From Methanoculleus oceani (GTDB lineage Archaea > Halobacteriota > Methanomicrobia > Methanomicrobiales > Methanoculleaceae), in assembly GCF_023702065.1 (NCBI RefSeq), contig NZ_QFDM01000001.1, forward strand, positions 248,001 to 312,000: DNA of 64,000 bases, written 5' to 3'. The position numbers were made by a program, and so were the translations under genes. This document shows positions 10,685 through 40,871 of this stretch, piece by piece (position 1 is the stretch's first letter; every line of letters begins with the position of its first letter). The notes beneath the pieces are model-generated. The model was not told the DNA's origin and did no database searches. It saw only the letters and a list, made by a program, of their open reading frames with translations.

Positions 10685-12577
10685 TTACTCCCCCGGCGCC
10701 TTCCGGAGCGTAAACCGGATGGCTGTGCCGCACTCCGGCCGCCCCTCCACCCGGTCGTCCGCCCATATCTTCCCGCCGTAGCGCGTAATGAGCATCCGGC
10801 AGATATAGAGGCCGAGACCAGCCCCCGCAAGCGCTCCTTCCCCCCTCCGGAAGCGGCGGAAGAGCGAGGCCTTCATCGCGCCGGGGATTCCCGGGCCGGT
10901 ATCCTCGATCGAGACAAGTACTTCATCCCCGTGCTCTTCCACCCGGATGGTGACCTCGACCGCCGGCCCACCGAACTTCACCGCGTTGCCGACGAGGTTC
11001 GCAAGGACCTCAGAAAGAAGGTTATCGGCGAGGACTGTGACCTCTCGCCCCTCGTACCGGATCCGGGTCGCGGGGTGGTTCGCCACCTGTGCGCGGATCA
11101 CCCGGTCGAGGTCCACCTGCGCCAACGCTGCTCCGTCCCCCCGGGCCTCGCGGAGGGTGGCGACGCAACCGATGATCTCCGAACTCTGCTCGAGCTGGGA
11201 GAGCATCTTTCTGGCCATCTCCTGCTGCTCCTCTTCGAGCGCATCGACAATGAATCGGGTGTATCCGATAGCGACGGTGTTTGCGTTGTTGATGTCGTGG
11301 ACCATGATGTCCAGGAAGAGTGTTGCCGTCCTGTTGGACTCCTCGAGGTCGGCCGTCCGCTCCCGGACCAGATCCTGAAGCCGGGCGCTGTACTCCCGTG
11401 TTGCCTCCTCCGACTCCCGGAGGCGCCGGATGTTCCCTTTGAGGGAATCAATCATGGTACCGATGCTCTCCTCGAGACGGGTAAACTCCGTTCCTGTAGA
11501 TACCCGGATCCGGTGGTCGAGATCCCCCCGGGCGATCCGATTGACGTCATCGACGATCGCCCGTATCGGGCGGGTAATCTGCCACGAAACCGGGACCGCG
11601 ATGCAGCAGGCGATCATGCCCGCAAAGACCGCGAGGAGAATGTGGCTAAGCCGCATCTCCTCGAGCCGGGCGTCGAGGAGAGCGGTACTGTAGGTCAGTT
11701 CGACGACCCTGCTTGTATCCGACGGGTAGTCGGTAGCGGAGAGGTCGACAAGGATATACCGGGTGAACCTTCCTGCGGCCGGATCCGCTATCGTCCGATC
11801 CTGCTTCTCTTCAAAGACTCCCCGGGCAACGGAATTGATGATAGCAGGATCGGTCGGGCTCTCCGAATCGGTCGCGTTGATGAGCCTCCCGTAACAGTCA
11901 AAGATCCGGATGCTCTCGAGCGAAGGGTTCAATCGCATCAGGTCCTCTTTAAGGGTCTGGTACTTCGGATCGAACCGGCCGGTCTCGACCGTAGTGCAGA
12001 TAAGCCCGAGCTCGAAGAGGTAGCGGTGATCGGGAGACGGCATGTAAGCGTACTTCCGCAACCGTCCGCTCGCCGGCTCAGCCAGGACCCGGTCCGCCGC
12101 GAACGCATCGCCGGACAGGATCTCCGTGATCCGGTCGTAGAAATAGGGGATCTCCCTGAAATCAAGGCCGAGATCCGGGGGATAAGTAGTGTACTCGATG
12201 ATACCGCTCTCGTTGATGATGTAGATGTCCATCTCTCCCCCGAGCTCCCCTTTGACGCGGGAGAGGTCCATCATCCCCGGGTTTCTTCCCGCCCGCTTGT
12301 ACTCGGCAAAGACCGGGTCGAATCCCTCCCGCATCTGGCGGTCCAGCGTGCTGTCGAAGAGTTTCAGGCCCGCATCCACGAGCTGTATCGATTGAATGAC
12401 GCTCTTCTCCGTCTGCTCCCGGAGCAGGCCTTCCTCGGCGATCAGAGCCTCCTCGACCTGCCGGTAGTCCATGGCCGAGATCAGCCCGATCACCGGGAGC
12501 GTTATCAGGAGCATGACGAGCACCAGATGTGTGCTGAAACGACGAGGCTTCCTGCCGGTACCGTCCGTCGCCGTCAT
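10685..12577 (-). CDS. Membrane sensor histidine kinase, paralogue 2 of 3
   Basis: The domain order matches its neighbours: helix (LVLVMLLITLPVIGLISAMD), a ~270-residue extracellular sensor with the shared INESGIIEYTTYPPD segment, a second helix (ILLAVFAGMIACCIAVPVS), HAMP and transmitter. The H-box reads IMVHDINN, the N-box NLVGNAVKFGG, G1 EDTGPGI and G2 AGLGLYIC. An in-frame ATG at 12631 exists, but ATG 12577 overlaps the stop of paralogue 3 as ATGA and has a GGGAGG element upstream. That start is preferred (630 residues) and implies coupled expression with paralogue 3. Input and output partners are not encoded nearby. Confidence 0.9.
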   Translation of the reverse strand: MTATDGTGRKPRRFSTHLVLVMLLITLPVIGLISAMDYRQVEEALIAEEGLLREQTEKSVIQSIQLVDAGLKLFDSTLDRQMREGFDPVFAEYKRAGRNPGMMDLSRVKGELGGEMDIYIINESGIIEYTTYPPDLGLDFREIPYFYDRITEILSGDAFAADRVLAEPASGRLRKYAYMPSPDHRYLFELGLICTTVETGRFDPKYQTLKEDLMRLNPSLESIRIFDCYGRLINATDSESPTDPAIINSVARGVFEEKQDRTIADPAAGRFTRYILVDLSATDYPSDTSRVVELTYSTALLDARLEEMRLSHILLAVFAGMIACCIAVPVSWQITRPIRAIVDDVNRIARGDLDHRIRVSTGTEFTRLEESIGTMIDSLKGNIRRLRESEEATREYSARLQDLVRERTADLEESNRTATLFLDIMVHDINNANTVAIGYTRFIVDALEEEQQEMARKMLSQLEQSSEIIGCVATLREARGDGAALAQVDLDRVIRAQVANHPATRIRYEGREVTVLADNLLSEVLANLVGNAVKFGGPAVEVTIRVEEHGDEVLVSIEDTGPGIPGAMKASLFRRFRRGEGALAGAGLGLYICRMLITRYGGKIWADDRVEGRPECGTAIRFTLRKAPGE

Positions 12578-14490
12578 GGGCTGCTTCCCTCCCCGGCCTT
12601 TGGGAGCGTAAACCGGATGGCCGTGCCGCACTCCGGGCGCCTCTCCACCCGGTCGACCGCCCGGATCTTCCCGCCGTAGCGTTCGATGAGCATCCGGCAG
12701 ATGTAGAGCCCGAGCCCGGTCCCGGCGCCCCTGCCGGTCCCGCGAGCAAGTCGCTCGAAGAGACGAGGTTTGAGAACATCCGGGATCCCCGGCCCGGTAT
12801 CTTCGACCGATACCAGGACCTCGTCGCCGTGCTCTTCCACCCGGATGGTGACCTCGACTGCCGATCCGCCGAATTTCGCCGCGTTCCCGAGCAAATTTGC
12901 AAAGACCTCGGAGAGGAGATCGTCGGCGAGCACGCTGACCGTGGTGCCGGCGTAGGTTATCCCGGTGATGGAAGAGCGCTCTATCTCACGCCTTACGAGG
13001 GGATCAAGATCGACCGGTTCAGGATGCCGTACCCCCCCCTGGATATGCTGGATGGTGTTGACGTTCCGGACGATCTCCATGCTCTTTGCGAGCCCCATCT
13101 TCGCCTTCCGGATCAGTTCGGCCTCGGGCTCTCCCTCGAGGTCGGCGAGGAGGAGGTCCGCGTAGAGGCTTGCGACGTTGTTGGCGTTGTTGATGTCGTG
13201 CCCCATGATGTCCAGGTAGAGTGTTGCCATCCGGTTGGACGCCTCAAGGTCGGCTGTCCGCTCCCGGACCTGGTCTTCGAGAGTATGGCTGTACCGGACG
13301 AGTTCCTCCTCCGACTCCCCGAGCCTCCGCATGGTCTCCTTTAAGGATGCGACCACTCGCCGCACACTCTCCCCGAGATGCACGAACTCCTCGTCCCCCC
13401 CCACCCGTATGGGGTGAGAGAGGTCCCCGCGGGCGACGGCGTCGACGTCCTCGACGAGGGTGCGTATCGGTCGTGTCAGGTGATGCGCGGCGAGGGCCGA
13501 GAGGCAGCCGATGCAGAGGAACGCGATGAGCAGGACACTCGTATGGTGGTCGAGTATCCCGGCGAGTTTTGTCTCTGCGGCCTTCGTATTGCAGGTCAGT
13601 TCAACAACCATGCTCATATCCGATGCGTAATTGCCGTCCGTCATATCGATGAAGAGGTACCGGGTCAGTTCGCCTGCGGTGGTGTTCTCCACTTCAAGCG
13701 TGGTCCTCTCCCGGTAAGCCTCTCTGACCATGGCCAGCCGGCGATCGTCGTCGGGATGCTCCTTGCCGGTGATCCGGGTGCCCAGACAGTCGAAGATCCG
13801 GATCTCCGTGATGTCCGGGTTCAGGCTCACCAGTTCCCCGACCATATCCCGGTACTTCAGCTCCGCGCGGTACCGCTGAAACTCAGACTCCACCAGGCCG
13901 AGCTCGAAGAGGTAGCGGTGGTCGGGAGAGGGCAGGTACGCATACTTCCGGAGTTCGCCGGTGGAGATCTCTGCGACGACCCTGTCGGCCGAGAAGACGT
14001 TCCCGAGCCGGATCGCCGTGATCCGGTCGTAAAATGAAGGGATCTCCTTAAAGTCGTACCCCAGATCGGGGGGATAGGTGGTATACTCGATGATACCGCT
14101 CTCGTTGATGATGTACAGGTCCATCCTGCCCCCGAGCTCCCCCTTGACCCGAAGGAGGTCCATCTTCGATGGGTCCCTGCCCACGCGCTCGTATTCTGCG
14201 ATAAACGGATCGAAACTTTCCCGCATCTCGTGGTTTAAGGTGTTGTCGAAGAGTTTCAACCCGGTGTCCACCAGGTTCATCGAGAGGGCTATTCCGGACT
14301 CGGTCTGGCTCCGGGATTCTACAGCATTCTCTTCCAGTTCCTGCCTGACCGCCGCAGAATCGATGAACGAGAGCAGGCAGACGACAGGGGCCATCGCGAG
14401 CAGGATGGCGGCCAGGAGATAGAGCATGAGCGGCAACGACGGCCTTACAACTCTCTTTACCGTCATTTGGGTATCCTCTCCGCTCTTCAT
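12574..14490 (-). CDS. Membrane sensor histidine kinase, paralogue 3 of 3
   Basis: This 638-residue kinase is the promoter-proximal gene of the pair. It has an N-terminal helix (LMLYLLAAILLAMAPVVCLL), an extracellular Cache-like sensor sharing YTTYPPDLG and RKYAYLPSPDHRYLFELGL with its paralogues, a second helix (VLLIAFLCIGCLSAL), HAMP, and a transmitter with IMGHDINN, NLLGNAAKFGG, EDTGPGI and TGLGLYICRML. TATA-like boxes on the minus strand lie at 14530-14551 (ATATATC, CTATATAG). The three kinases probably arose by tandem duplication and diverged mainly in the sensor and H-box flank. No receiver protein is encoded beside them. Confidence 0.9.
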   Translation of the reverse strand: MKSGEDTQMTVKRVVRPSLPLMLYLLAAILLAMAPVVCLLSFIDSAAVRQELEENAVESRSQTESGIALSMNLVDTGLKLFDNTLNHEMRESFDPFIAEYERVGRDPSKMDLLRVKGELGGRMDLYIINESGIIEYTTYPPDLGYDFKEIPSFYDRITAIRLGNVFSADRVVAEISTGELRKYAYLPSPDHRYLFELGLVESEFQRYRAELKYRDMVGELVSLNPDITEIRIFDCLGTRITGKEHPDDDRRLAMVREAYRERTTLEVENTTAGELTRYLFIDMTDGNYASDMSMVVELTCNTKAAETKLAGILDHHTSVLLIAFLCIGCLSALAAHHLTRPIRTLVEDVDAVARGDLSHPIRVGGDEEFVHLGESVRRVVASLKETMRRLGESEEELVRYSHTLEDQVRERTADLEASNRMATLYLDIMGHDINNANNVASLYADLLLADLEGEPEAELIRKAKMGLAKSMEIVRNVNTIQHIQGGVRHPEPVDLDPLVRREIERSSITGITYAGTTVSVLADDLLSEVFANLLGNAAKFGGSAVEVTIRVEEHGDEVLVSVEDTGPGIPDVLKPRLFERLARGTGRGAGTGLGLYICRMLIERYGGKIRAVDRVERRPECGTAIRFTLPKAGEGSSP

Positions 14491-36951: not shown

Positions 36952-37151
36952 CAGATGTTGTTACGAACTGAGGGATATATATTACGATAACGGGCCGGAA
37001 CCCGCGGGCCCGATCCCCCGGCATATAAGCGCCGAACCACTCCGGCCGGCGAGCCCGGACGTCAGGCGAAATATTTTTGCCGCATGTGGCCTGCACGTTT
37101 CCAATATCCCATTCTAGCGGCAGATCTTTGAAAATACAAGAGAGGTGGTTA

Positions 37152-37159
37152 TTTATATG
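37152..37159 (+). promoter_or_regulatory. TATA box of the lipoprotein/pilin-like operon
   Basis: TTTATATG lies about 28 bases before ATG 37185, so the mRNA is nearly leaderless. It is the only good promoter before 40871, which supports one six-gene transcript. The rest of the 233-bp spacer back to the FmdE gene shows no gene. Confidence 0.6.
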
Positions 37160-37184: not shown

Positions 37185-37763
37185 ATGAGAGTTCCCGGGG
37201 GCGTTCTGACCCTGCTTGCCGTAATCTGTATCCTCTGCACCGCGTGCGGTTGTCTCGGTGCGTCTTCGCCGCCATCGGACGGCGGCACCACGGGGGGCGG
37301 GATAACCCCCATCGACCTGCCGGAACCGTCGGATGCCTGCACCCTCACCGAGGCTCTCGCGGAACTGGATCTCCTCGGGGCCGAGGGCGGCCTGAACGTC
37401 ACCGGCACATCGGTGCACCAGGTGCTCGGGGCCGGCATGGGCTCTGACGGCCGGGCCGCCTCCTGGGCCCTCGGTCTTGCGGACGGCGAGGAGGTGCGCT
37501 GGCTCACGTTCGGCGCTATGGGCTGGAGAGAGATCTCGCTCCGTGCCCCCCTGCCCGACGCGGAGGTGAATGTGACCGAGACCCTCGCCCCCGAGGAACT
37601 CCTCGCGATGCAGGAAGGGGTGCTCCGGCCGGTGATGGTAAGCCTCGATGCGGATACGGTTGATATCGCGCTCGCCGAGGGGATCTACACCGTCACCGTC
37701 CGTTCGAATGCCGGGATGAAGACCCTCGCGTTCCGGGCCGATACCGGGGAGGTGATCGTATAA
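37185..37763 (+). CDS. Secreted lipoprotein, first gene of the pilin-like operon
   Basis: The 192-residue protein begins with a signal peptide ending in a Cys-containing lipobox-like segment (ICILCTACGC) and a Ser/Gly/Pro linker, so it is probably anchored on the outer membrane face. The remainder (LTEALAELDLLGAEGGLNVT through IYTVTVRSNAGMKTLAF) has no family I recognise. It lies five bases before the next gene, with which it must be cotranscribed. A role in assembly or as a surface component is inferred from context only. Confidence 0.75.
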   Translation: MRVPGGVLTLLAVICILCTACGCLGASSPPSDGGTTGGGITPIDLPEPSDACTLTEALAELDLLGAEGGLNVTGTSVHQVLGAGMGSDGRAASWALGLADGEEVRWLTFGAMGWREISLRAPLPDAEVNVTETLAPEELLAMQEGVLRPVMVSLDADTVDIALAEGIYTVTVRSNAGMKTLAFRADTGEVIV

Positions 37764-37768
37764 GACCA

Positions 37769-38815
37769 ATGGCCGACGACGGGGCGATGTCGCTTGACTT
37801 CCTCGCGGGGTTCACGATCTTCATGCTCGCCCTGATCATGGTGGTGAGCATGGTGCCGGGGCTCCTTGCAGGCCTCGAGAGCAGCGGCATCGACTACGAC
37901 GCGGTCGCCTACCGGACGGGGGTGATCCTGGTCGAGGACCCCGGCTGGCCGGTCTACCCGCCCTGGGAGATGAACGACGGGGCCCATAAGGACGAGATCG
38001 AGCGGATCGGCCTTGCGATCTCGAAAGACACCCCGAACATCCTCCTCTCGACAAAGGTCGATGCGTTCTTCAACGACTCGTTCTTCACCCCGGATGACTA
38101 CCGCAACCTGGCAATCTTCGGCGACATCCCTTACTCCTACAACATCTCGCTCCGGAGCCTGGACGGGTCGTATAATCACAGGACCGGCGATCCCCTCCCT
38201 CCCGGCTACGGCTACATCCGCCGGGTGGTGAAGATCAAGGAGCCGGGAGTGGCGGAGATCGTGGGAAATATTGCGTCACCGTACTGGACAGCCACCCCGC
38301 CGAGCCCGACCCAGACGCTCACTGTCCGGCTCGACTTCGCCCGCCTGCTGGACCCGTCCGTCGGCCCGGCTTACCGGCTCGACCCCCGGGTTGAGCCGGT
38401 GAACGTGACGATCACGAACTTCGGCGCGTACCTGAATATGACCGAGCCGTCTACCACGAACGCAACGCTCAAGAGTGTGACGTTCTGGAAGAAGGACCCG
38501 ACGAGGGCGAACCCACGGTTCACCCGTATTCCGTTCTCGTACAATACGGAAGACCCGAGTCTCTACACCCTCTCCGTCGACGGGAATCCGAATGACCTCA
38601 CGCCGGGCGGACCGGTCACCGACAACATCTCCCTTGTGCTGAAGCCGGCCGCCACCTCGCTCTTCACCCTGGACCAGAACAGCATCCTGGATATCCGGTT
38701 TGCCTTCGAGGACGACCCCCCGCGGACCATGCTCAACGGCACCTATCCGTATGACTACGGAACCGTCACCCTCCCCGCCCTGAAGACCGGCGTTCTGGAG
38801 GTGGCGATATGGTGA
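37769..38815 (+). CDS. Pilin-like membrane-anchored surface protein (MADDG- N-terminus)
   Basis: The 348-residue protein has a short charged N-terminus MADDGAMSLDFLAG, a single hydrophobic helix (FTIFMLALIMVVSMVPGLLA) and a large extracytoplasmic domain. That architecture matches archaeal pseudopilins. The exported part is rich in Asn-X-Ser/Thr sites (NIS, NMT, NAT, NGT), so it may be glycosylated. It ends overlapping the next gene by seven bases. I recognise the architecture but not a characterised family member. Confidence 0.75.
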   Translation: MADDGAMSLDFLAGFTIFMLALIMVVSMVPGLLAGLESSGIDYDAVAYRTGVILVEDPGWPVYPPWEMNDGAHKDEIERIGLAISKDTPNILLSTKVDAFFNDSFFTPDDYRNLAIFGDIPYSYNISLRSLDGSYNHRTGDPLPPGYGYIRRVVKIKEPGVAEIVGNIASPYWTATPPSPTQTLTVRLDFARLLDPSVGPAYRLDPRVEPVNVTITNFGAYLNMTEPSTTNATLKSVTFWKKDPTRANPRFTRIPFSYNTEDPSLYTLSVDGNPNDLTPGGPVTDNISLVLKPAATSLFTLDQNSILDIRFAFEDDPPRTMLNGTYPYDYGTVTLPALKTGVLEVAIW

Positions 38816-39327
38816 ACGACGGAGGACAGCTCTACACGATGGAGGGCGTCGCGGCCGGGATCATCATGCTCCTGACCGCGTACATCGTCATCAGCACGAC
38901 GAGCATCTACACCGCGGGAGATACGCATATCCCGGATATGCAACTTGAGCAGCTCGGAAGCGACGTACTCGCGATGATGGATACGCCGGATACCAACGGA
39001 AGCGATAGCCGGCTGGTTGTGCTCGTCAAGGGTGGAGTCCCAAGTGGCAATACGCTCCGGACCGAGTTCCTCGATAACTGTAAGATGCGAGCAGGAGACG
39101 ATGACGACGACCTCAGGGCCCAGGTCTACCTCACCCACAGGACATTCAGCGGTGACGTAAACACGATCCAGCTCTCACCGTCGGACCCCGGGTTCACCGG
39201 ACGTGAGAACGCAGTGCGGGTGACACGGTGGGTACATCTGCCGGAAGGAGGTTACCTCTCCGCATTCGGTATTGATACTTCCCGGCCGCACGCCGCCCTC
39301 GTGGAGGTGCTGCTATGGCGTGCATGA
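38809..39327 (+). CDS. Pilin-like membrane protein (MVNDGGQ- N-terminus)
   Basis: The 172-residue protein starts MVNDGGQLYTMEGVAAGIIM, again a short acidic lead followed by one hydrophobic helix (to ~35) and an exported domain. It resembles the haloarchaeal/methanogen DUF7288-type proteins in layout. The start overlaps the preceding gene by seven bases and the stop overlaps the next ATG by four. The function is inferred from the operon only. Confidence 0.75.
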   Translation: MVNDGGQLYTMEGVAAGIIMLLTAYIVISTTSIYTAGDTHIPDMQLEQLGSDVLAMMDTPDTNGSDSRLVVLVKGGVPSGNTLRTEFLDNCKMRAGDDDDDLRAQVYLTHRTFSGDVNTIQLSPSDPGFTGRENAVRVTRWVHLPEGGYLSAFGIDTSRPHAALVEVLLWRA

Positions 39328-39701
39328 ACGAAGACGGCCAGTGGATCGTGCTGATGGGTCTTCTGACCGCCCTTGCACTGTTCTTCCTCGCGCTGATCAT
39401 CAACCAGTCGGCGCTCGTCGGGCAGACGACGGCCGAAGGGGTGCTCGAGTTCCCGAAGAACGACATCCGGGACCTGCGATTGGAGATATTCGACTATTAT
39501 GACAGTTATGAGGGGGGACTCACCCCTCTGGAACAGCAGCATTACGTGGAGGACATCGTCAGGATATCGCTCGAACGAAAGAACGCCGTGGTGTACTTCT
39601 GGGACGGTCCGCAACAGGACGTCTCCGGCCGTATGCTTCGCCCGATAACCATCCACTACAACAACGGGGTGACGGAGTACGATGAGACCGTGTATTACTG
39701 A
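39324..39701 (+). CDS. Pilin-like membrane protein (MNEDGQW- N-terminus)
   Basis: From ATG 39324, which overlaps the previous stop as ATGA, the protein has 125 residues; an ATG at 39315 is in frame but less well placed. It reads MNEDGQWIVLMGLLTALALF with one membrane helix, then a polar exported domain (FPKNDIRDLRLEIFDYYDSY, VVYFWDGPQQDVSG). The N-terminal N-E-D-G pattern parallels its neighbours, which points to a shared processing or insertion signal. Confidence 0.72.
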   Translation: MNEDGQWIVLMGLLTALALFFLALIINQSALVGQTTAEGVLEFPKNDIRDLRLEIFDYYDSYEGGLTPLEQQHYVEDIVRISLERKNAVVYFWDGPQQDVSGRMLRPITIHYNNGVTEYDETVYY

Positions 39702-39705
39702 ACCG

Positions 39706-40128
39706 ATGAACGAAGAGGGCGTCACGAGGCTCATGGAGTACGTCATCATCAGCGGCATGCTGCTCCTGCTGATGGTCGTCATGATGTTCACCGTCAACGC
39801 CGTCTTCATGGAGGGGCCGGCGGACACGCTCCGCTACCACGCCTTCGTGGATATCGGGAACGGGGTGAGCACCCGGATCGTGGATCTCTACGTGATCGCG
39901 CCCGGCAACGGGACGATCGCCACGAAGTTCGATATCCCCGACGACGTGGCCGGGAAGGGCTACTTCGTGAACGTGGGGATGACGGGAGCGAGCCAGGCGA
40001 TCCTGGTGCAGGGCGGCGATATCCAGAGCCGGGTCGCCATCGCCGGTATCGGGGCGACGAAGGGTGTTTCCGGCAACACCACCGGCGCGGGATGGAACAT
40101 GATCCAGTACGACTCAAAAGGGTTTTAG
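39706..40128 (+). CDS. Pilin-like membrane protein (MNEEGVT- N-terminus)
   Basis: From ATG 39706 the protein has 140 residues: MNEEGVTRLMEYVIISG, a hydrophobic helix (MLLLLMVVMMFTVNAVF) and a ~100-residue exported beta-rich domain (YVIAPGNGTIATKFDIPDD). The upstream in-frame ATG 39682 lies inside the preceding gene and is not used. It sits four bases after that gene. The pattern fits archaeal class III signal-like proteins, but the cleavage site is unclear. Confidence 0.72.
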   Translation: MNEEGVTRLMEYVIISGMLLLLMVVMMFTVNAVFMEGPADTLRYHAFVDIGNGVSTRIVDLYVIAPGNGTIATKFDIPDDVAGKGYFVNVGMTGASQAILVQGGDIQSRVAIAGIGATKGVSGNTTGAGWNMIQYDSKGF

Positions 40129-40148
40129 GGAGGGAGAGATCCGTGAAG

Positions 40149-40871
40149 ATGAATGAACGGGCGGTCTCCGAGGCGATCGGGTTTGTCCTGATCCTCGGGA
40201 TCGTCATCAGCGGCATCGGTCTGGTCACGCTCTACGGCTACCCGGTGCTCATAAAGGAGCAGAGCAACACCGACGTAAAGAACATGGAGCGGGCGATGAT
40301 CGTCATCCAGAACGACATGAAGAGCCTCTGCTACAAGAACGTGCCTTACAAGGAGACGTCGCTGCAGGTGAGCGGCGGGACGCTCGAGGTGGTCAACTCC
40401 ACCAGTTACGGGGGGTTAATCAACGTCTCAACCGGCACCGAGTCCTTGAACTACTCAGTGGGCGCCCTGATCTACCGCTCCGATCGCGGCACCGAGGTGA
40501 TCACCCTCGAGAACGGTGCGGTGATGACGCGCCAGGAGGGGTCGACGGGTTCGGCGATGCTCGCCGAGCCCCGGTGGTTCTATGACGCGCCCACGGGGAC
40601 GTTTGTCATTTATATCATGAACATCACCACCGACGACCTGATGGCGAAATCGGGGATGGGGGCGGTGAGGATGAGCCTGGAGAACGTGGACACACAGGTT
40701 CGCACCTCTCCCGCCGCTGTCACGGTGACGTATACCACAGATGGCGATAATAACCTCTCTGTGGCGTGGGATAACTACCTGACCGGCATCAGCCCGAGCG
40801 GAACCTTCCCCCTGACAGGGGTAAGCAAACTCGTCATAAAAGAGTACAGGATCAAAATCTACGATATCTAA
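40149..40871 (+). CDS. Archaeal pilin-like protein (DUF7289-type), MNERAVSEAIG start
   Basis: From ATG 40149 the protein has 240 residues; GTG 40143 would add two. MNERAVSEAIGFVLILGIVI is the classic archaeal type IV pilin-like N-terminus, in which a short basic leader precedes A-V-S-E-x-I-G and the helix. A large exported domain follows (ALIYRSDRGTEVITLENGAV, WFYDAPTGTFVIYIMN). A GGGAGGGAGAG ribosome site lies upstream. It is the last gene of the operon. No prepilin peptidase, ATPase or TadC-type membrane protein is encoded nearby, so it would depend on machinery elsewhere. Confidence 0.8.
   Translation: MNERAVSEAIGFVLILGIVISGIGLVTLYGYPVLIKEQSNTDVKNMERAMIVIQNDMKSLCYKNVPYKETSLQVSGGTLEVVNSTSYGGLINVSTGTESLNYSVGALIYRSDRGTEVITLENGAVMTRQEGSTGSAMLAEPRWFYDAPTGTFVIYIMNITTDDLMAKSGMGAVRMSLENVDTQVRTSPAAVTVTYTTDGDNNLSVAWDNYLTGISPSGTFPLTGVSKLVIKEYRIKIYDI

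Follow-up and report, generated by a model that had tools for sequence, protein, structure and literature searches.

A conserved six-gene operon of Methanoculleus oceani: a lipoprotein and a probable type IV pilin set encoded apart from its assembly genes

Results

We analysed a 64,000-nucleotide stretch of the Methanoculleus oceani genome (contig NZ_QFDM01000001.1, positions 248,001 to 312,000; hereafter the window, with positions counted from its first nucleotide) and focused on an operon at 37185-40871 that encodes a lipoprotein and five pilin-like proteins. An earlier note on this DNA had described the operon as a pilin-like set of unknown assembly. All six of its open reading frames (ORFs) are present on the same strand, and the genes touch or overlap as the note had stated, with intervals in gene order of +5, -7, -4, +4 and +20 nt. 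The note was also correct that no ATPase, TadC or peptidase gene lies within the operon. The features are as follows, with a slash marking the predicted cleavage site.

37148..37158, + strand: TATA-like core promoter GGTTATTTATA, putative, from conservation of GTTATTTATA
37185..37763, + strand: lip, lipoprotein, 192 aa; no Pfam family
37769..38815, + strand: DUF7287 pilin-like protein, 348 aa, MADDG/AMSLDFLAGFTIF; Pfam PF23958, 38.9 bits (cut-off 27)
38809..39327, + strand: DUF7288 pilin-like protein, 172 aa, MVNDG/GQLYTMEG; Pfam PF23959, 34.2 bits (cut-off 27)
39324..39701, + strand: DUF7261-like pilin-like protein, 125 aa, MNEDG/QWIVLMG; PF23922, 12.8 bits (below the cut-off of 27), assigned by position and iterated profile
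39706..40128, + strand: DUF7266-like pilin-like protein, 140 aa, MNEEG/VTRLMEY; PF23928, 20.4 bits (below the cut-off of 27.6), assigned by position and iterated profile
40149..40871, + strand: DUF7289 pilin-like protein, 240 aa, MNERA/VSEAIGF; Pfam PF23960, 96.4 bits (over the cut-off)

The DUF7261 and DUF7266 proteins are labelled "-like" because their Pfam scores fall under the curated cut-offs. For the DUF7261-like gene the longest ORF begins at 39315, three codons 5' of the conserved start at 39324 used here. The DUF7289 protein, whose closest named relatives are from Methanoculleus sp. (87% identity), also gave a weak Pilin_N match (14.4 bits). NCBIfam returned zero matches for all six proteins, and a literature search found no mention of the DUF7287/7288/7289-type names.

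Each product contains exactly one transmembrane-like segment, at its N-terminus, as the earlier note had proposed for the five pilin-like proteins. In the five pilin-like proteins a short n-region ending in Gly or Ala precedes this hydrophobic helix, which is the pattern of a class III signal peptide. The N-termini read as the note had given them, M-(A/V/N)-(D/N/E)-(D/E)-G in four products (MADDG, MVNDG, MNEDG and MNEEG) and MNERAVSEAIG in the fifth (MNERA). Among Methanomicrobiales homologues in which the pattern could be placed, Gly or Ala stands at the predicted -1 position in 66/66 DUF7287, 94/94 DUF7288, 92/96 DUF7261, 95/95 DUF7266 and 99/100 DUF7289 sequences; a further 28 DUF7287 rows could not be scored, those printed owing to a fetched ORF that started too late. 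An AlphaFold model of the DUF7287 protein is confident (pLDDT 90, pTM 0.82) and has a helix at residues 9-37 that starts right after the predicted cut; beyond it lie another helix and a large beta domain. The exported domains had been called often N-glycosylatable, and here the sequons clearly exceed the expectation from composition only for the DUF7287 protein (7 versus 2.5 expected, p=0.007); the excess is marginal for the lipoprotein.

The predicted -2 residue in Methanomicrobiales is mostly Asp, Glu or Ser, with Arg or Lys also frequent in DUF7289, whereas it is Arg in every scored haloarchaeal DUF7287, 7288, 7266 and 7289 protein. The acidic n-regions are no argument against processing, because the host's own PilA-type pilin (ENEEA/VSPVIGVILM) and archaellin (KNENA/FTGLEAAIVLIAF) have similarly acidic or polar n-regions, and this composition looks like a lineage habit. 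The same short, acidic n-regions, set against the haloarchaeal Arg-Gly, would favour the idea that the five products are uncut single-pass membrane proteins of a stationary envelope complex, a sensor or an adhesin, that forms no filament. We regard this as improbable given the near-invariant Gly/Ala at -1 in five families, the similar n-regions of the host PilA-type pilin and archaellin, and the linkage of the haloarchaeal genes to PilB-PilC described below.

Across the Methanomicrobiales loci examined, we repeatedly found the order lip-7287-7288-7261-7266-7289, in most cases with the translation factor 1A gene downstream. In 79 named loci, several of them cut by contig ends, we found DUF7289 in 79, DUF7266 in 79, DUF7261 in 76, DUF7288 in 74, DUF7287 in 70 and the lipoprotein in 64. 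Judged from these sequences, the conservation of the operon is far beyond chance. The five pilin-like families are also kept together across other Halobacteriota.

The haloarchaeal loci connect the cassette to assembly genes. In 15 of 17 haloarchaeal cassette loci, PilB (approximately 850-1330 aa) and PilC directly precede the cassette families in an apparent single operon, with the contiguous order PilB-PilC-7287-7288-(7261)-7266-7289; three of these loci have no recognised 7261. Methanomicrobiales, Methanosarcina-like genomes and other methanogens encode the cassette away from PilB/PilC (group names such as Methanosarcina-like are inferred from kinship). In M. oceani the two lie on different contigs. 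Of the three host ORFs with a T2SSE domain, one is the archaellum ATPase within the archaellum locus on contig C3, and another is a PIN/KH-domain ATPase that belongs to a different family. The third is a PilB of 845 aa that occupies C2:861170-865684 together with the two T2SSF genes following it, PilC1 and PilC2. Thus the host has just one non-archaellum PilB, with two PilC halves. The sole A24 peptidase match (PF01478, C2:866709-867050) is in a divergent gene near PilB (C2:866460-867461). The PilA-type pilins (Pilin_N) are encoded apart from the cassette, at the ends of C2 and C3. Because both strong PilA-type genes (C2:1216-1428, L183; C3:319-501, L184) lie less than 1.5 kb from contig ends, the assembly may lack further pilin copies. 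Just upstream of PilB, a gene on the minus strand (L005:9651-10295) encodes a 214-aa protein with no Pfam match that recurs beside PilB-I, the host-type PilB, in several other Methanomicrobiales and is possibly another part of the system.

In quick trees the host PilB stands apart from the archaellum and 4C-like ATPases, and its nearest neighbours are euryarchaeal PilBs, among them PilB3-like ones; its assignment to "clade 2" is tentative and comes from a comparison with Makarova, Koonin and Albers (2016, PMC4858521) rather than from clade-labelled references. No clear pairing of the host PilB with its counterpart next to the haloarchaeal cassette emerged from the phylogeny, in which the haloarchaeal ATPases form a separate branch.

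Profiling for co-conserved PilB/TadC-type genes, which the earlier note had suggested as a check, was carried out in 106 Methanomicrobia genomes that are at least 95% complete. The cassette was scored by a profile of its DUF7289, and PilB-I was scored in the same genomes as long (approximately 680 aa or more) or short (576-655 aa). The distribution of the cassette DUF7289 is nearly bimodal, with the gene present in 81/106 genomes and absent from 25/106. The cassette occurs in 80/87 genomes with a long PilB-I versus 1/19 without one (Fisher p = 9e-14, kinship ignored), and the latter divide into 0/11 with no PilB-I and 1/8 with a short PilB-I only. Genomes of at most 10 contigs split perfectly (35/35 versus 0/7). 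All seven genomes with a long PilB-I and no cassette are drafts of 30-400 contigs, and in one of them, G024, a match to DUF7287 lies close to the end of a contig. The short PilB-I proteins (L266, L268-L273) form one clade in the tree and have a much shorter N-terminus. Where a second PilB type (PilB3-like, 43-48% identical) occurs without PilB-I, the cassette is absent. The cassette does co-occur with filament machinery, the reverse of one of the two outcomes that the note had named as grounds for giving up its proposal.

These distributions also bear on the possibility that the cassette products work with the archaellum motor, either as minor archaellins or as parts of its base. The host does have an archaellum locus, and a single A24 peptidase was found for both systems. 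This role is very unlikely in our view, since the haloarchaeal cassette lies in PilB operons and the Methanomicrobia cassette tracks the long PilB-I.

A concatenated tree points to two ancient cassette types. Type B, supported by 100% SH-aLRT, includes the haloarchaea, a second Methanosarcina-like copy and two more lineages, and is characterised by a DUF7287 of approximately 140-180 aa and often by a long 7261 and an extra DUF7289 of 440-610 aa. Type A includes Methanomicrobiales, the first Methanosarcina-like copy and others, with a DUF7287 of approximately 320-420 aa and a short 7261. The window cassette is of type A, which may or may not be a single clade. A strict mirroring of the two cassette types by two PilB lineages was considered and dropped, as two genomes (G131 and G086) have type-A-like cassettes and PilBs outside the PilB-I clade.

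Several loci depart from the usual arrangement. One genome has a five-gene cassette duplicated in tandem (L079:4781-8002 and 11181-14277), with the copies 3.2 kb apart and markedly diverged. The gene order is rotated in L103 (7289-7266-7287-7288-7261) and in L106 (7261-7266-7289-7287-7288). A strongly diverged cassette (L090) lacks a recognisable 7266 and has a DUF7287 of approximately 290 aa; its genome, G043, encodes a short PilB-I together with another, diverged PilB.

The model of the lipoprotein is confident past residue 50 (pLDDT >90) and consists of an N-terminal helix, a linker and then a helix-plus-beta-strand unit that occurs twice. Its best fold match in the PDB is 4exr, a Clostridium difficile lipoprotein (E 3.3e-3, prob 1.00, TM 0.46/0.56), with a far weaker match to the YpeB C-terminal domain (E 0.33). 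We take both of these to be PepSY-type proteins, and the modelled fold is possibly PepSY-like; we treat this as a lead because none of 42 lipoprotein homologues matches Pfam PepSY. By sequence, the lipoprotein gave only chance-level matches in the PDB. In some Methanoregula-type loci a plain membrane helix seems to take the place of the lipoprotein Cys site, which suggests that outward-facing tethering is what matters for this protein.

The upstream neighbours of the operon are hisG and an FmdE-domain gene (divergent), and the gene downstream encodes translation initiation factor 1A. An Rfam scan found no RNA family. The single promoter that the note had proposed is plausible, as one TATA-like element, GTTATTTATA, is invariant approximately 30 nt 5' of the first start codon in 10 Methanoculleus-like loci. 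A transcript from this element would be nearly leaderless. Additional conserved blocks lie 60-120 nt upstream in the Methanoculleus-like loci; those at window positions 37068-37134 (GAAATATTTTTGC, TGCACGTTTCCAATATC and GGCAAATCTTTGAA) are strongly conserved and are candidates for regulator sites or for the promoter of the divergent FmdE-domain gene. A scan for bacterial promoters and terminators, the coverage of which does not extend to archaeal promoters, detected no promoter-like site and terminator-like sites at or below chance.

Discussion

Based on these comparisons, we consider it probable that the five pilin-like products are the pilin set of a euryarchaeal clade-2 type IV pilus, or alternatively of a short pseudopilus, whose assembly genes lie apart from the operon. 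Each of the five proteins would be inserted in the membrane as a prepilin, and the host's one A24 prepilin peptidase (C2:866460-867461) would cut it after Gly5 (Ala5 in the DUF7289 protein). Polymerisation of the mature N-terminal helices would then fall to the PilB ATPase together with the PilC1/PilC2 platform. The five proteins most likely form a priming or tip complex, or another minor-subunit complex, of the PilA filament, because they are single-copy, mutually different and in fixed order, and the PilA-type pilins are encoded elsewhere. The lipoprotein would lie on the outer face of the membrane and may aid assembly, anchoring or control. The earlier proposal of a pilin set with a companion lipoprotein, served by machinery elsewhere, is thus supported by the haloarchaeal operons, the host PilB, PilC and peptidase genes and the co-occurrence, and its label "unknown assembly" can be replaced.

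Pilin sets of this kind have been described, and the kind of system is known. Among euryarchaeal clade-2 type IV pili, one form is based on PilA and another, the PilB4-type, has pilins specific to it; the ATPase/TadC and pilin loci of these pili can be separate (PMC4858521). The same study describes a minor, duplication-prone pilin of approximately 250-550 aa, arCOG02911, common to both forms (PMC4858521), a description that fits DUF7289 (the two were matched by description only). The cassette resembles the PilB4-type set in combining several distinct pilins tied to a PilB/TadC, here putatively of clade 2, in a pilin that fits the description of the 250-550 aa duplication-prone one and in the two tadC genes that many euryarchaeal loci share with the host. 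It differs in being detached from PilB/PilC, in its type A form with a long DUF7287, in its lipoprotein first gene and in the acidic residues before the cleavage site. In the PilB1-C1 operon of Haloferax volcanii, which is needed for full surface adhesion, pilin genes that are in part of clade-2 type likewise come after PilB and PilC, yet its PilB1 belongs to clade 4C (PMC6491452), and the host ATPase is apart from the 4C-like ATPases in our tree. Our searches placed both DUF7287 and DUF7289 in H. volcanii.

The bacterial minor-pilin sets FimU-PilV-PilW-PilX and GspH-I-J-K are thought to prime assembly and to sit at the tip. They, too, are fixed-order operons of single-copy pilins with the main pilin encoded elsewhere; the likeness is an analogy, with no sequence relation expected.

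The PilB4-type comparison also raises the possibility that the five proteins assemble into a separate filament, in which the DUF7266- or DUF7289-type protein would most likely be the main subunit, instead of serving a PilA filament. The PilB4-type pilin set is argued to have its own main pilin, distantly related to PilA (PMC4858521). The DUF7266 and DUF7289 N-termini resemble PilA, and the haloarchaeal operons are self-contained PilB-PilC-pilin units. Each gene is present in one copy, however, and the host has one DUF7289 match versus separate PilA-type pilins, and we hold a separate filament to be the less likely arrangement, though a serious one.

Several observations weigh against a pilin set working with the host PilB. 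A fold search with the DUF7287 model retrieved no solved pilin and no convincing relative (best E 0.012, prob 0.08). For DUF7289, a sequence search of the PDB gave no match. The residue before the predicted cut is mostly acidic or Ser, in contrast to the haloarchaeal Arg. In the ATPase tree, the host PilB shows no specific grouping with the PilB found beside the cassette in haloarchaea. The co-occurrence rests on only about three independent losses (genus g13; genera g17/g115; the short-PilB lineage), and both the processing and the filament are deduced from sequence.

The assignment to assembly machinery and the co-occurrence with the long PilB-I are the firmest new points. Also new are the apparent co-loss of the cassette with the long PilB, the two cassette types that the tree presents as ancient, the acidic residues in place of Arg ahead of the predicted cleavage site, and a lipoprotein that occurs throughout Methanomicrobiales and whose fold may be PepSY-like. 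The host PilB-I has an N-terminal extension of approximately 330 residues. We think it rather unlikely, as a more specific proposal, that this extension recognises the cassette and is retained or lost along with it as a matched partner, the lipoprotein acting as an assembly factor specific to Methanomicrobiales.

DUF7287, DUF7288, DUF7261, DUF7266 and DUF7289 are Pfam families with no assigned function that are spread across Halobacteriota; they can now be treated as one unit, the probable pilin set of a specific archaeal pilus, so that five nameless protein families gain a testable role. In the methanogens examined the cassette lies apart from the motor genes and is thus easily left unassigned. 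Its apparent co-loss with one PilB lineage points to an ATPase worth deleting, and the contrast between acidic residues in Methanomicrobiales and Arg in haloarchaea makes the specificity of archaeal prepilin peptidases testable.

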